Of a DNA stretch of 54,554 nt, positions 6,141-10,510 are shown in pieces (positions within the stretch are counted from its first letter, which is position 1; every line of letters begins with the position of its first letter). A program made the translations under genes and the position numbers. Below the pieces are notes generated by a model. It saw only the letters and a list, made by a program, of their open reading frames with translations. It was not told the DNA's origin and made no database searches. The stretch is from Halothiobacillus sp. (GTDB lineage Bacteria > Pseudomonadota > Gammaproteobacteria > Halothiobacillales > Halothiobacillaceae). The stretch lies in NCBI GenBank assembly GCA_020061705.1, contig JAGUXT010000044.1, forward strand, positions 1 to 54,554, in the 5' to 3' direction.

Positions 6141-7519
6141 ACCGAACGCTCCCGCAAGCCCTGCAACACGCGCTCATGCGCCCCGCCAAAACTGCCATTG
6201 CTCATCAACACCAGATGATCGCCGGGGCGCAGTTGTGCCAACACATCCTGCACCATCGCCGCCACCTCGACGCCGCTCCAGCTCGGACAGGCCAAGCCCT
6301 GCGCGACGTGCCGCACATCCCAGCCTGCATCCTCCGGCTGGAACAGCCACACCGCATCCGCCGCCGCCAGCGAATCCGCCAGGGTGTCCGCATGAACGCC
6401 CATGCGCATCGTATTGGAACGCGGATCGAGCGCCACCAGCAGGCGTGCCTCGCCAATACGCGCACGCAACCCCTCCAGCGTGGTACGAATCGCGGTCGGA
6501 TGATGCGCAAAATCGTCATACAGCGTCACGCCATCGACCACGCCACGCACCTCCAAGCGCCGCTTTACGCCGGAAAACTGCGCCAGCGCCGCAATGCCCA
6601 CCGCCACCGGCACCCCGGCATGACGCGCTGCGGCCAGGGCGGCCAGCGCATTGCTCACGTTATGCGCGCCCAACTGCGACCACTGCACCGTGCCTTGCGA
6701 CACGCCATCCAGCAGCACCTCAAAACGCGAACCGTCGGCTTCCGCTGCTCCAACCGACCACGCCCCACCCGCGCCAAAGCTCGCAACCGGCGTCCAGCAA
6801 CCGCGCTCCAACACGGCATCCAGCGCCGCGTCGCCCTGCGGCTTCACGATCAGCCCGCTTGGCGGAATCATGCGCACCAGATGATGAAATTGCGTCTGAA
6901 TCGCCACAAGATCAGGGAAGATATCGGCATGATCGAACTCAAGATTATTCAGAATCACCGTGCGCGGGCGGTAATGCACAAACTTCGAACGCTTGTCGAA
7001 AAACGCCGTGTCGTACTCGTCCGCCTCAATCACAAAAAACGACCCGCCGCCCAAACGTGCGGAACAGCCAAAATTGTTCGGCACACCGCCGATCAAAAAG
7101 CCGGGGTTCAAGCCCGCATATTCCAGAATCCACGCCAGCATCGAACTGGTGGTGGTCTTGCCATGCGTACCCGCCACCGCCAACACCCACTGCCCATGCA
7201 GGATAGTGCGCCCCAGCCACTCCGGCCCCGAGGTGTAGCGCATGCCGCGATCCAGCATGGTTTCGGCAATCGGCATCCCGCGCCGCATCACATTGCCGAC
7301 CACGACTTCGCCCTCGAAGCCATCCAACTGCGCCGCCTCGTAACCCTCAACCCAGGGAATCCCGGCGGCCTCCAGCTGCTCGCGCATCGGCGAATACACC
7401 TGCCGATCCGCGCCCGACACCACATAGCCCGCAGCCTTGGCCAACTGCGCCAGGCCGCCCATAAAGGTTCCGGCAATACCCAGAATATGAACCGCCCCGC
7501 CTAAATTAAAATGGTTCAT
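6137..7519 (-). CDS. mpl: UDP-N-acetylmuramate:L-Ala-gamma-D-Glu-meso-DAP ligase (murein recycling)
   Basis: Mpl joins recycled murein tripeptide to UDP-MurNAc and so bypasses the MurC-MurE steps. The protein begins MNHFNLGGAVHILGIAGTFMG, with the nucleotide loop of Mur ligases. The ATP P-loop AGTHGKTTTSS, the NNLEFDHADIF segment and the DDFAHHPTAIR motif of the third domain follow. It has 460 aa, the usual Mpl size. The open frame extends 46 codons further upstream, but the ATG at 7519 is the family start and overlaps the upstream stop as ATGA. With amgK and murU in this window, it indicates a Pseudomonas-like cell-wall recycling route. Confidence 0.95.
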   Translation of the reverse strand: MNHFNLGGAVHILGIAGTFMGGLAQLAKAAGYVVSGADRQVYSPMREQLEAAGIPWVEGYEAAQLDGFEGEVVVGNVMRRGMPIAETMLDRGMRYTSGPEWLGRTILHGQWVLAVAGTHGKTTTSSMLAWILEYAGLNPGFLIGGVPNNFGCSARLGGGSFFVIEADEYDTAFFDKRSKFVHYRPRTVILNNLEFDHADIFPDLVAIQTQFHHLVRMIPPSGLIVKPQGDAALDAVLERGCWTPVASFGAGGAWSVGAAEADGSRFEVLLDGVSQGTVQWSQLGAHNVSNALAALAAARHAGVPVAVGIAALAQFSGVKRRLEVRGVVDGVTLYDDFAHHPTAIRTTLEGLRARIGEARLLVALDPRSNTMRMGVHADTLADSLAAADAVWLFQPEDAGWDVRHVAQGLACPSWSGVEVAAMVQDVLAQLRPGDHLVLMSNGSFGGAHERVLQGLRERSV

Positions 7520-8031
7520 GCAGGCGCACTCCCGGGAAATAAAGCTGCAATGCTCAAACTCGATAGCATGAAATACACAAACACCAACAACAGCCCCGTG
7601 CCCGCGCTCACATCCAAAGCCCGGCGCAGCACCTGCCCCTGTGCAATCAAACTCCACAACAACAACGCCAACATCCCGATCTGCGCCGGATGCAGCTCAT
7701 TCGCCACCATCTCGTCCGGCGCGGCGCTAAACACCGGCCACGACAGCAAGGAAATCACCAGACTGATGCCCATCAAGGCCGCATAGGTTTGGTTGAACCG
7801 CTCGGGATGTTCACGCACTTTAAGCGCCCCCCAGACAAACCCCGCCAGCAAAGCCGCATCCACCGCCGCCTGCGCCATACCGATGGCAAAACCGTCCTCC
7901 GCCATAAACAGCAAACCGCCGCTAAGCACATAGCCCGCCACCAAAACCCACGGCAAACGCGCATCGCCCGGCAAATCCTCCGGCCCAATGCGCAAAAAGC
8001 AAAGCTCAAACAACTGGCGCAGCAAGCCCAT
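7516..8031 (-). CDS. Small integral membrane protein of unknown function, first gene of the mpl operon
   Basis: This 171-residue protein has four likely membrane helices (about residues 28-46, 55-72, 90-108 and 140-165). No catalytic motif is seen, and I do not recognise a named family with certainty; it may belong to the Yip1/YckC-like membrane proteins. The ATG at 8031 has a GGGAG site six bases upstream and is preferred over a TTG two codons earlier. Its stop overlaps the mpl start. An intrinsic-terminator-like hairpin lies just upstream, which could attenuate the operon. Confidence 0.72.
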   Translation of the reverse strand: MGLLRQLFELCFLRIGPEDLPGDARLPWVLVAGYVLSGGLLFMAEDGFAIGMAQAAVDAALLAGFVWGALKVREHPERFNQTYAALMGISLVISLLSWPVFSAAPDEMVANELHPAQIGMLALLLWSLIAQGQVLRRALDVSAGTGLLLVFVYFMLSSLSIAALFPGSAPA

Positions 8032-8057
8032 CCCCAACTCCCATGTTCACAAGGCGC

Positions 8058-8090: not shown

Positions 8091-8334
8091 TGATTATGAC
8101 GAAAAGCGGGGCGTTAGCGAAACGAAAGAGGGTGCAAGCGGCGAAAGCCCCACTCCCTGCTGCGCTACGAACTGCCGCCTGTAATGAGCTTAGTGTCCAA
8201 AATGCAGCGCCCAACCAAGCGTCCGTCGCCTTGCGCCAGCACACTGCCCGCAACCAGACTTGAATATGAATCACGGTGAGCATGATTCTGGAGACGGCAG
8301 CGTTTTTGACCTATGCTTGGCTGCGATCAAATAA
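8091..8334. other. Gene-poor intergenic segment
   Basis: I see no gene with support on either strand here. The one open frame (8047-8283, minus) has biased composition and no recognisable motif. A weak candidate promoter for the gene at 8391 starts with TTGACC at 8306-8311, followed by an AT-rich CAAATAAATA stretch at 8328-8337. Confidence 0.5.
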
Positions 8335-8358
8335 ATAGACACCTTGCTAGGTGTCTAT
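8335..8358 (+). promoter_or_regulatory. Perfect inverted repeat (candidate operator) upstream of the 8391 gene
   Basis: ATAGACACCT (8335-8344) and AGGTGTCTAT (8349-8358) form a perfect 10-bp inverted repeat with a four-base gap. It sits 32 bases before the GTG start and directly after the candidate -10 region. That is where a repressor would bind, or where an mRNA leader hairpin would form. No T-tract follows, so a terminator is unlikely. Confidence 0.55.
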
Positions 8359-8390
8359 ATACACGTTAGCCATCAAGAGAAGCCATCGTA

Positions 8391-9647
8391 GTGGGACCAA
8401 TCACGCTGTTCGATAAGTCGTTTTTGCAATCTCTGAACATCGACGAATCGGTGTGGTTTGACCACCACTTTCTTACGAACGTCTGCCCGATGTTCTACGT
8501 GGAGACGCTAGCCGATCTCGATAAATCCGTACGCGAAGGCAGGACGCCTGAACAAGAAGTAGGCATCATCGCGTCAAAGTTTCCGGAGATGCACGGCTCT
8601 CCGAACGCACACCACGCGGCGCTTAGCTTGGCGAACCTCATGGGCTACCCGGTACCCATGGATGGCCGGATTCCGCTTGCCTGTGGCCGGCCAGTAAAGA
8701 CGGACGACCGCACCGGCGTAGTCTTTGACCGTTCGCCCGAAGCAGATGCCTTTGCACGATGGCAGCGCGGAGAATTCCGAGAGATTGAGAGGCTGTTTGC
8801 GCGTGACTGGCGAGAAGCTCTCAGGACTCTCGATCTCAATCAGATCGCCGCCGGGTTTCGTGCGATCGGCATTGATGGGAAGAACTGCAAGACCTTAGAG
8901 GATGCTCGGGCAATTGCTATTGCCGTGGCAGCGGGACGCGACAAACCATTCGACAGAATGAAGCTCGCCATTTTGTTCCTGGGTATCCCGCCGGAGAGGC
9001 ACAGATCAATCCTAGAGCGCTGGAACGTTGCGGGCTATCCGCCCCTCGTGGAGTATGCCCCATACACCGCGCACGTCCTGACCGTGGAGGTCTTCTTCCA
9101 ACTCGCGATTGCAGCCAATCTGATCTCGGCGGATCGGGCATCGAATCGCTTGGATATCGCGTACCTCTACTATCTACCGTTCTGCATGCTGTTTGTTTCT
9201 TCCGACCGGTTGCACGAGCGGTGTGCTCCTCTCTTTTTGCGAAAGGATCAAGAGTTTGTCTGGGGGAGCGATCTAAAGGCTGACCTAAAGAGCCTCAACG
9301 CGCACTATGCGGCGCTACCCGAGGCGACAAAGGAGCAAGGCATCATGAGCTTTGCGAGTGGCCCTCCCAAAGATGGAAACTTCCTCGTCACGCGAATTTG
9401 GGATCACCATTTACCCAAGTGGCGACGAATTCGGGACGAACCTAAGCTGCCCCGAGACCCGGAGAAAGAGGCCGCACTCGTCAAGAAATTGAAAGAAGTC
9501 ACGAAAGCTCCAACTCTTAGCCCAGCTGAGGTGGACTTTGATCTGCACAACCCGGATAGCTTGTCCATTCAGCGATTCGTGGCGAAGCGAAAGGGATCTT
9601 GGTGGCAGTTGCCGAAAGACCTTGAAGTATCCGAAGAGAAGGACTGA
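8391..9647 (+). CDS. Unrecognised accessory protein, possible PIN-like nuclease
   Basis: I do not recognise this 418-residue protein as a named family. It is soluble with no signal peptide. The N-terminus (hydrophobic strand then FDKSF, Asp8), the acidic pair in FYVETLADL (Glu38, Asp42), Asp255 in RLDIAYLYYLPF and Asp272 in FVSSDRLHE are spaced as in PIN-like nucleases, where scattered acidic residues chelate a metal. That is inference from pattern only. The start is GTG; AAGAGA lies upstream. The gene stands alone, opposite in direction to its neighbours. It has an inverted-repeat operator in front and palindromic repeats behind, which suggests an acquired defence or stress gene. The C-terminal 60 residues are charged and look flexible. 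Confidence 0.7.
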   Translation: MGPITLFDKSFLQSLNIDESVWFDHHFLTNVCPMFYVETLADLDKSVREGRTPEQEVGIIASKFPEMHGSPNAHHAALSLANLMGYPVPMDGRIPLACGRPVKTDDRTGVVFDRSPEADAFARWQRGEFREIERLFARDWREALRTLDLNQIAAGFRAIGIDGKNCKTLEDARAIAIAVAAGRDKPFDRMKLAILFLGIPPERHRSILERWNVAGYPPLVEYAPYTAHVLTVEVFFQLAIAANLISADRASNRLDIAYLYYLPFCMLFVSSDRLHERCAPLFLRKDQEFVWGSDLKADLKSLNAHYAALPEATKEQGIMSFASGPPKDGNFLVTRIWDHHLPKWRRIRDEPKLPRDPEKEAALVKKLKEVTKAPTLSPAEVDFDLHNPDSLSIQRFVAKRKGSWWQLPKDLEVSEEKD

Positions 9648-9688
9648 GTGGAGGAAACCGGGGACAGCCCGCGTAGGGCGGAATAGCA

Positions 9689-9758
9689 CGGCGTATTTAC
9701 GCCGCATGGCGTTAGTGCGGTCATTCATTCCGGTGCATTACGCATTCGCTAATGCACC
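9689..9758. repeat. Two short palindromic repeats behind the accessory gene
   Basis: CGGCGTA-TT-TACGCCG (9689-9704) and GGTGCATTA (9732-9740) with TAATGCACC (9750-9758) are perfect inverted repeats. The second belongs to a class of extragenic palindromes, rich in GGTGC-ATTA-type arms, that is widespread in proteobacteria. They may end transcription of the accessory gene or mark an insertion boundary. Confidence 0.6.
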
Positions 9759-9823
9759 CTACCGCGACAGAAGAAAATAATGCGCCGAACCGCAAGATTT
9801 TCGTTGAGAGTGAGCGATAACCC

Positions 9824-10510
9824 CTACTCCACTTCACCGCATTTCAAATTCCCCGGCACCGCCACATTAATAAAGCGTGGATGTGGCAGATTCAATTCCT
9901 GCATTTTCTTTTCAAACGCGGCTTGATCCAGGCCGACAATATACGGATTGATTTCCTTTTCCTGCGCCACCGAACTTACATGGCGGCCGTTGTAATCATG
10001 CGCCGGGTAGACCAGGGTTTCGTCCGGATAGGCCAGCAGTTTTTGCAGGCTGGCATACATTTTCTTGGCGCAGCCTTGCTGAAAGTCCGTGCGCCCACAG
10101 GCGTCAATCAACAGGGTGTCACCGGTGAACAAGCAGTTGCGCCACGCGTAACTGGTGCAGCCATCGGTATGCCCCGGGGTACAGATCGAACGAATCACTT
10201 CATTACCGAAGGCCAGCACATCGCCCTCGCCCATCAGAATATCGGCACAATCCAGCTCGGTGCCTGCACCTGCCACGAATTTCGCCCCGGTGGCATGGCG
10301 CAGCTTGCCGCCGCCGGTAATGTGGTCAGCATGCACATGTGTTTCGAGGATGTAACGCAAATTGACACCCATCTCGGCGATTACCGCTAAATCCCGCTCC
10401 GCTTGCTCCAGCACCGGGTCAATCACAATGGCATCACGCGTCACTGGATCAGCCAGCAGGTAGGTATACGTCCAGGTACTCGGATCAAACAATTGACGAA
10501 ACAGAATCAT
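9824..10510 (-). CDS. Persulfide (sulfur) dioxygenase, ETHE1-type metallo-beta-lactamase fold
   Basis: ETHE1-like enzymes use iron and O2 to oxidise glutathione persulfide to sulfite. The protein has 228 aa, with the metal motif THVHADHITG near residue 58, a further His in TPGHTDGCTSY, Asp in FTGDTLLIDACGRTDFQQG and His in VYPAHDYNG. The CGRTDFQ signature separates ETHE1 proteins from glyoxalase II. It stands alone between the accessory island and a divergent membrane protein gene. It suggests sulfide or sulfane-sulfur oxidation in this organism. Confidence 0.93.
   Translation of the reverse strand: MILFRQLFDPSTWTYTYLLADPVTRDAIVIDPVLEQAERDLAVIAEMGVNLRYILETHVHADHITGGGKLRHATGAKFVAGAGTELDCADILMGEGDVLAFGNEVIRSICTPGHTDGCTSYAWRNCLFTGDTLLIDACGRTDFQQGCAKKMYASLQKLLAYPDETLVYPAHDYNGRHVSSVAQEKEINPYIVGLDQAAFEKKMQELNLPHPRFINVAVPGNLKCGEVE

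Follow-up and report, generated by a model that had tools for sequence, protein, structure and literature searches.

A putative PIN-like nuclease gene at an apparent integron attI relic in Halothiobacillus

Results

A lone gene of a widespread family

The window, that is, the whole stretch of 54,554 nucleotides of Halothiobacillus sp. DNA analysed here, carries at 8391-9647 of the plus strand an open reading frame with a GTG start and a product of 418 aa. The homologues and the AlphaFold2 model described below point to a PIN-like nuclease gene carried as an integron-type cassette. The flanking genes (7516-8037 and 9824-10510) are both on the minus strand, and the list of open reading frames agrees with the initial annotation on the frame, its start codon and its opposition to its neighbours. 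No match to a sigma-70-type promoter was found in the region of the gene.

The earlier remark that no family could be named for the product holds: with a threshold as loose as E = 10, it matched nothing in Pfam, PADLOC, NCBIfam or PHROGs (hmmscan) or among PDB sequences (phmmer). The gene had also been called an orphan. When GTDB genomes were scanned, 46 loci with 29-63% identity to it were recovered, from Proteobacteria, Nitrospirae, Acidobacteria, Binatia, Patescibacteria, Planctomycetes, Omnitrophota, Zixibacteria and one Lokiarchaeote; therefore, the gene is not an orphan, and its product is a member of a broad and widespread family without a name. None of the 95 relatives whose genomes were searched, including four congeners, has the gene. 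An origin from a phage or plasmid was considered and rejected; phage records gave no match, and a single plasmid, from an Acidobacterium, matched in part.

In three homologues the reading frame is broken, by an in-frame stop or by a shift of frame, namely those at L009 8001-9281 (Variovorax), L031 8001-9242 (Polynucleobacter) and L046 6398-7461 (a cyanobacterial MAG), which suggests decay in some carriers. A distant Planctomycete homologue (L043 70-1335) has a SEC-C motif at its C-terminus.

The upstream hairpin and the left cassette edge

An inverted repeat lies 5' of the gene at 8332-8361, with the hairpin TAGACACCTTGCTAGGTGTCTA at 8336-8357. The hairpin recurs in the window's own genome and in relatives. 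A longer query taken from the same-genus genome G003 found elements of about 150 bases in the window's own genome (G000), G003, G004 and G022. Across nine copies in these four genomes the shared sequence stops at one point, G then TTA (written G/TTA below), and the genes beyond differ. Just upstream of the G022 copy is a complete integron integrase gene (326 aa, TIGR02249, 487 bits) that points away from it, and at the copy on contig 54 of G003 such a gene is reduced to its first codons. G006 and G010 each have a complete integrase facing a diverged version of this hairpin, AATATACACC...GGTGTATATTGC, which likewise ends in G/TTAG. The order of intI, attI and cassettes at these loci is the integron layout.

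Because the hairpin is shared, the copies end at the G/TTA junction and intI genes stand beside them, the window would hold an attI core without an integrase gene. This putative core (8334-8365, plus strand) comprises the hairpin at 8336-8357 and the spacer up to the recombination G; the same element occurs at nine places in four genomes and, in diverged form, beside intI in two more. It is followed by the R' box GTTAGCC (8365-8371, plus strand). The crossover, placed where the similarity of the copies stops, would fall between 8365 and 8366, the left cassette edge, and the PIN gene would therefore be a cassette inserted at that point. A left junction of the type G/TTRRRY is present behind the attI hairpin as ACACG/TTAGCC, in which the third R is replaced by C; this variant is also seen at the G004 copy. 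The initial annotation had taken the inverted repeat for a private operator. This reading was rejected because the hairpin is a shared attI element, found elsewhere in the genome and in relatives.

At least two further attI-type hairpins in the window's own genome (G000:C42:35203 and G000:C21:35135; loci L093 and L072) are followed by G/TTA and other genes. These extra copies therefore point to further integron relics or cassettes there, with no complete integron integrase found. In attI sites of this bacterial family, the conserved palindromic hairpin resembles a terminator on the integrase-facing strand (L092 1557-1580; L060 and L062 around 2560-2595; window 8336-8357). It may serve integrase binding or block transcription into intI. 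The conserved hairpin also offers a way to find more cassettes in this family, even after loss of the integrase.

The same chromosomal site in relatives and the right end

When the syntenic locus of G003 was compared by blastn, the flanks aligned up to 8332 and from 9825, and within the intervening segment (8333-9824) only the hairpin part was common to both. Between the same flanks, G003 has the attI element, a gene for a 338-aa protein, a textbook attC and a gene for a 194-aa secreted-type protein. The attC reads GCATAAC...GTTAGGC, and its first box exactly complements GTTATGC at the start of the same cassette. The 338-aa product of this cassette (L056 1367-2440, attC intact) contains cysteines and has no Pfam match. 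In G001 and G002, the corresponding interval is only about 500 bases, against about 2 kb here. Given the different cassette in G003 and the short interval in G001 and G002, the spot is probably a site of cassette capture.

At the right end (9648-9824), REP-like palindromes stand where an attC is expected. The palindromic repeats previously noticed behind the gene were recovered as inverted repeats at 9673-9802, and no attC-like site was found behind the window gene; its attC was presumably lost or never present. A reading of the palindromes as dispersed REP elements was not borne out: a single match of 24 bases, in G003, and a partial one at 70%, in G002, were all that was obtained. No TIGR02249 match above the cut-off was found in the window's own genome. 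Among the relatives, TIGR02249 integrases are present in G002 (with an internal stop), G005, G006, G010 and G022.

The hairpin and GTTAGCC could in principle be a chance terminator, with the gene having come by another route. On the minus strand the hairpin does resemble a terminator with a T run, and the gene has no attC behind it. Against this, nine copies break at the same G/TTA, complete intI genes stand opposite one copy and two diverged ones, and in G003 the same chromosomal site is occupied by another gene, which has an attC, so that a chance terminator is very improbable.

Homologues as cassettes

attC-like sites were found at the expected ends of at least four homologues (L007, L012, L018 and L019), and the L012 locus (Limnobacter) has an array of about eight of them. 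The count of cassette-borne homologues is a lower bound, since strict attC calling misses degenerate sites. A relaxed attC caller returned 3 upstream sites against about 0.9 expected, so it is the individual sites, rather than their number, that carry the cassette claim for the homologues. Of 15 carrier genomes, 9 encode an integron integrase that passes the curated cut-off, and of 14 control genomes none does, a comparison that is indicative only, the controls being unmatched. As judged from its computed junction, the window gene is probably an integron cassette at an attI relic. Its absence from the 95 relatives and its insertion at an attI site bear out the initial view of an acquired gene.

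Conserved acidic residues

D8, E38, D255 and D272 are identical in 100% of the homologues that cover each position, followed by D42, E117 and E133 at 98% each. The protein has 59 acidic residues, and the five singled out in the initial annotation (Asp8, Glu38, Asp42, Asp255 and Asp272) are all among the seven most conserved (hypergeometric P about 4e-6); their conservation was correctly anticipated, and none proved variable in the sense that would speak against the PIN-like reading.

The codons are all on the plus strand. Asp8 (8412-8414), PIN acidic residue 1, lies in a DKS motif at the end of strand 1, after model strand 4-7. Glu38 (8502-8504), PIN acidic residue 2, is in model helix 33-44, and Asp42 (8514-8516), an extra conserved acidic residue, is one turn past it. 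Asp255 (9153-9155), PIN acidic residue 3, is in model helix 251-264, 17 residues ahead of Asp272. Asp272 (9204-9206), PIN acidic residue 4, lies in an S-x-D motif after model strand 267-270. S10, two past D8, and S270, two ahead of D272, presumably agree with PIN motifs, and we take the DKS and SxD motifs and the D255-D272 spacing to be the pattern of VapC-type PIN domains. Both conservation and model placement put four conserved acidic residues at PIN positions. Such residues form the metal-binding active site of the RNase H-like PIN fold (PMC6118392).

Predicted fold

AlphaFold2, run on an alignment of 38 sequences, gave a model with a mean pLDDT of 90 and a pTM of 0.88. Its N-terminal part consists of strand 4-7, D8, helices, strand 28-31 and helix 33-44 with E38 and D42. 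Next is a long stretch made up largely of helices, then helix 251-264 with D255, strand 267-270 and D272, and beyond these a helix, strand 288-291 and a helix. In the model, the succession strand-D8, helix-E38/D42, helix-D255, strand-D272 appears to be the PIN order of elements.

Foldseek gave no PIN match among the PDB rows listed and no convincing match, either there or in a viral fold library. In a second look at structures with VIA-align, ranks 1-12 all went to PIN or PIN-like proteins, with Z of 5.6-7.6 over 116-143 residues, an identity that we take in part from their titles. They presumably include VapC4, other VapCs, a PIN chain of the 90S/SSU processome, a K. lactis RNA-decay protein and a bacterial PRORP. 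These alignments span the model from residue 1 to about 300-340 and take in a whole PIN domain, and other folds, including other Rossmann-like ones, begin near Z 4 to 5. By the program's own caution, Z below 8 can be chance level or a common arrangement; therefore, the argument for PIN relies on the uniformity of the list and on the location of the four invariant residues. A profile match to PF01850 or VapC is a common, not strictly required, mark of PIN-like families. None was obtained for the product by hmmscan or hhalign, and 16 VapC-type proteins taken from related genomes, compared by hhalign, matched neither the full length nor a spliced core.

The PIN-like nuclease proposed at the outset is accordingly favoured by the invariant acids, the PIN topology of the model and the VIA-align list, and disfavoured by the Foldseek ranking and the VapC profiles; no confident match to an unrelated fold emerged. 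An improbable alternative is that the likeness reflects a common alpha/beta arrangement, the acids serving some other metal- or nucleotide-binding enzyme. It draws on the lack of a significant Foldseek match, VIA-align Z below 8 and the negative VapC profile comparison, and is opposed by the first 12 VIA-align rows, PIN or PIN-like over the whole PIN domain with Rossmann-like others starting from near Z 4, and by four invariant acids at PIN positions in the model.

Between acidic residues 2 and 3 are about 160 residues additional to a standard PIN domain. This mostly helical insertion (approximately residues 63-222; 8577-9056, plus strand) is delimited from the model's secondary structure, with its extent drawn from PIN topology. 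Modelled by itself, it had a pLDDT of 69.5 and no structural match.

Gene neighbourhoods

No gene recurs beside the homologue loci, and no antitoxin gene adjoins the window gene. Toxin-antitoxin cassettes are frequent in integron arrays, and the closest solved folds in VIA-align are VapC toxins, two points in favour of a VapBC-like toxin of a toxin-antitoxin pair. That reading is nevertheless quite improbable, since the homologues have no recurring adjacent gene, 418 aa is about three times a VapC, and the gene stands alone between opposite-strand genes; a toxin-antitoxin pair was rejected for want of a recurring partner.

Type I or IIG restriction, AbiE, OLD-like and site-specific recombinase genes neighbour some homologues; most neighbours are ordinary and diverse. 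The tendency toward defence islands suggested in the initial annotation was not demonstrated; restriction and abortive-infection genes do stand beside some homologues, in contexts that are diverse overall. No known defence system in PADLOC matched the product (E up to 10). In G022, the first gene after attI (L092 1752-2441) encodes a HEPN protein of the RiboL-PSP type, which is likewise a candidate cassette-borne RNase. The corresponding first gene in G006 (L060 2584-3471) encodes a TIR-like protein, judged by eye.

A rather unlikely alternative is a PIN-like RNase with a cellular role in RNA processing, decay or stress response that integrons have spread for its usefulness in certain habitats. 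The wide distribution, which includes an archaeon and Patescibacteria, the diverse and often housekeeping neighbours of the homologues, and the RNA-processing and RNA-decay proteins among the PIN rows of VIA-align are in line with it. The very sporadic presence (0 of 95 relatives searched) and the mobility as a cassette argue the other way.

Discussion

Computation gave the conservation of the family, the order of fold elements, the attI junction and the sporadic presence of the gene. Taken together, the evidence makes it fairly probable that the product is a PIN-like metal-dependent nuclease encoded by a lone gene that is carried as an integron cassette at attI. The product would be a metal-dependent, PIN-like endonuclease, most probably an endoribonuclease, in which D8, E38, D255 and D272, aided by D42, bind metal. 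Substrate selection or gating is probably the task of the helical insertion of about 160 residues that is particular to the family, and the gene would act by itself, with no antitoxin partner. It would have arrived as an integron cassette at the G/TT crossover of an attI whose integrase gene is gone.

Most integron cassette proteins are without a name. Integrons have been reported as stores of anti-phage genes missed by databases (Darracq, Getz and Kieffer 2025, cited by PMC12444791). Given the lack of a recurring partner, the integron carriage and these reported anti-phage cassettes, a lone defence RNase is the best guess. The most likely role would be that of a single-gene defence or abortive-infection RNase, inactive until infection. 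A defence role is plausible and an anti-phage function a tentative proposal; the nuclease reading, drawn from the model, is considerably safer than the defence role. It is a speculative and unlikely further step that the family is a new class, a single-gene, integron-mobilised anti-phage PIN nuclease that uses a built-in sensor or insertion domain to detect infection and needs no partner protein to cleave RNA, present in many phyla and missing from the defence and domain databases searched.

Integron cassettes are now seen as a store of unrecognised defence genes. The size of the family and its clear predicted active site make direct testing by point mutants feasible, and the family would bring domain libraries a branch of PIN whose insertion is unusually large.

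Among known systems, the anti-phage integron cassettes (Darracq, Getz and Kieffer 2025, cited by PMC12444791) are likewise single genes, mobilised by attI and attC, sporadic and absent from defence databases, whereas the attC of the window gene would have been lost and defence is only a candidate role here. In the portions of the literature searched, no report of this family among such cassettes was found. VapC and other PIN-domain ribonucleases (PF01850; VapC4 of Pyrococcus horikoshii, 5h4g) have the strand and helix order predicted here, the same four acidic residues and S/T-x-D at the last one. Unlike VapC, the window protein is about three times longer, has no sequence-profile match or antitoxin, and carries a C-terminal extension as well as a large insertion that separates acidic residues 2 and 3. 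The PIN-like RNA-processing and RNA-decay nucleases differ from it in their accessory parts and have no sequence similarity to it. These are 6zqd_UX and 7mq8_SL, 7qhy and 7e8o, which in part from their titles we take to be 90S/SSU-processome chains, a K. lactis RNA-decay protein and a bacterial PRORP, respectively, and the predicted PIN-like core of the window protein resembles theirs (Z 5.6-6.5).
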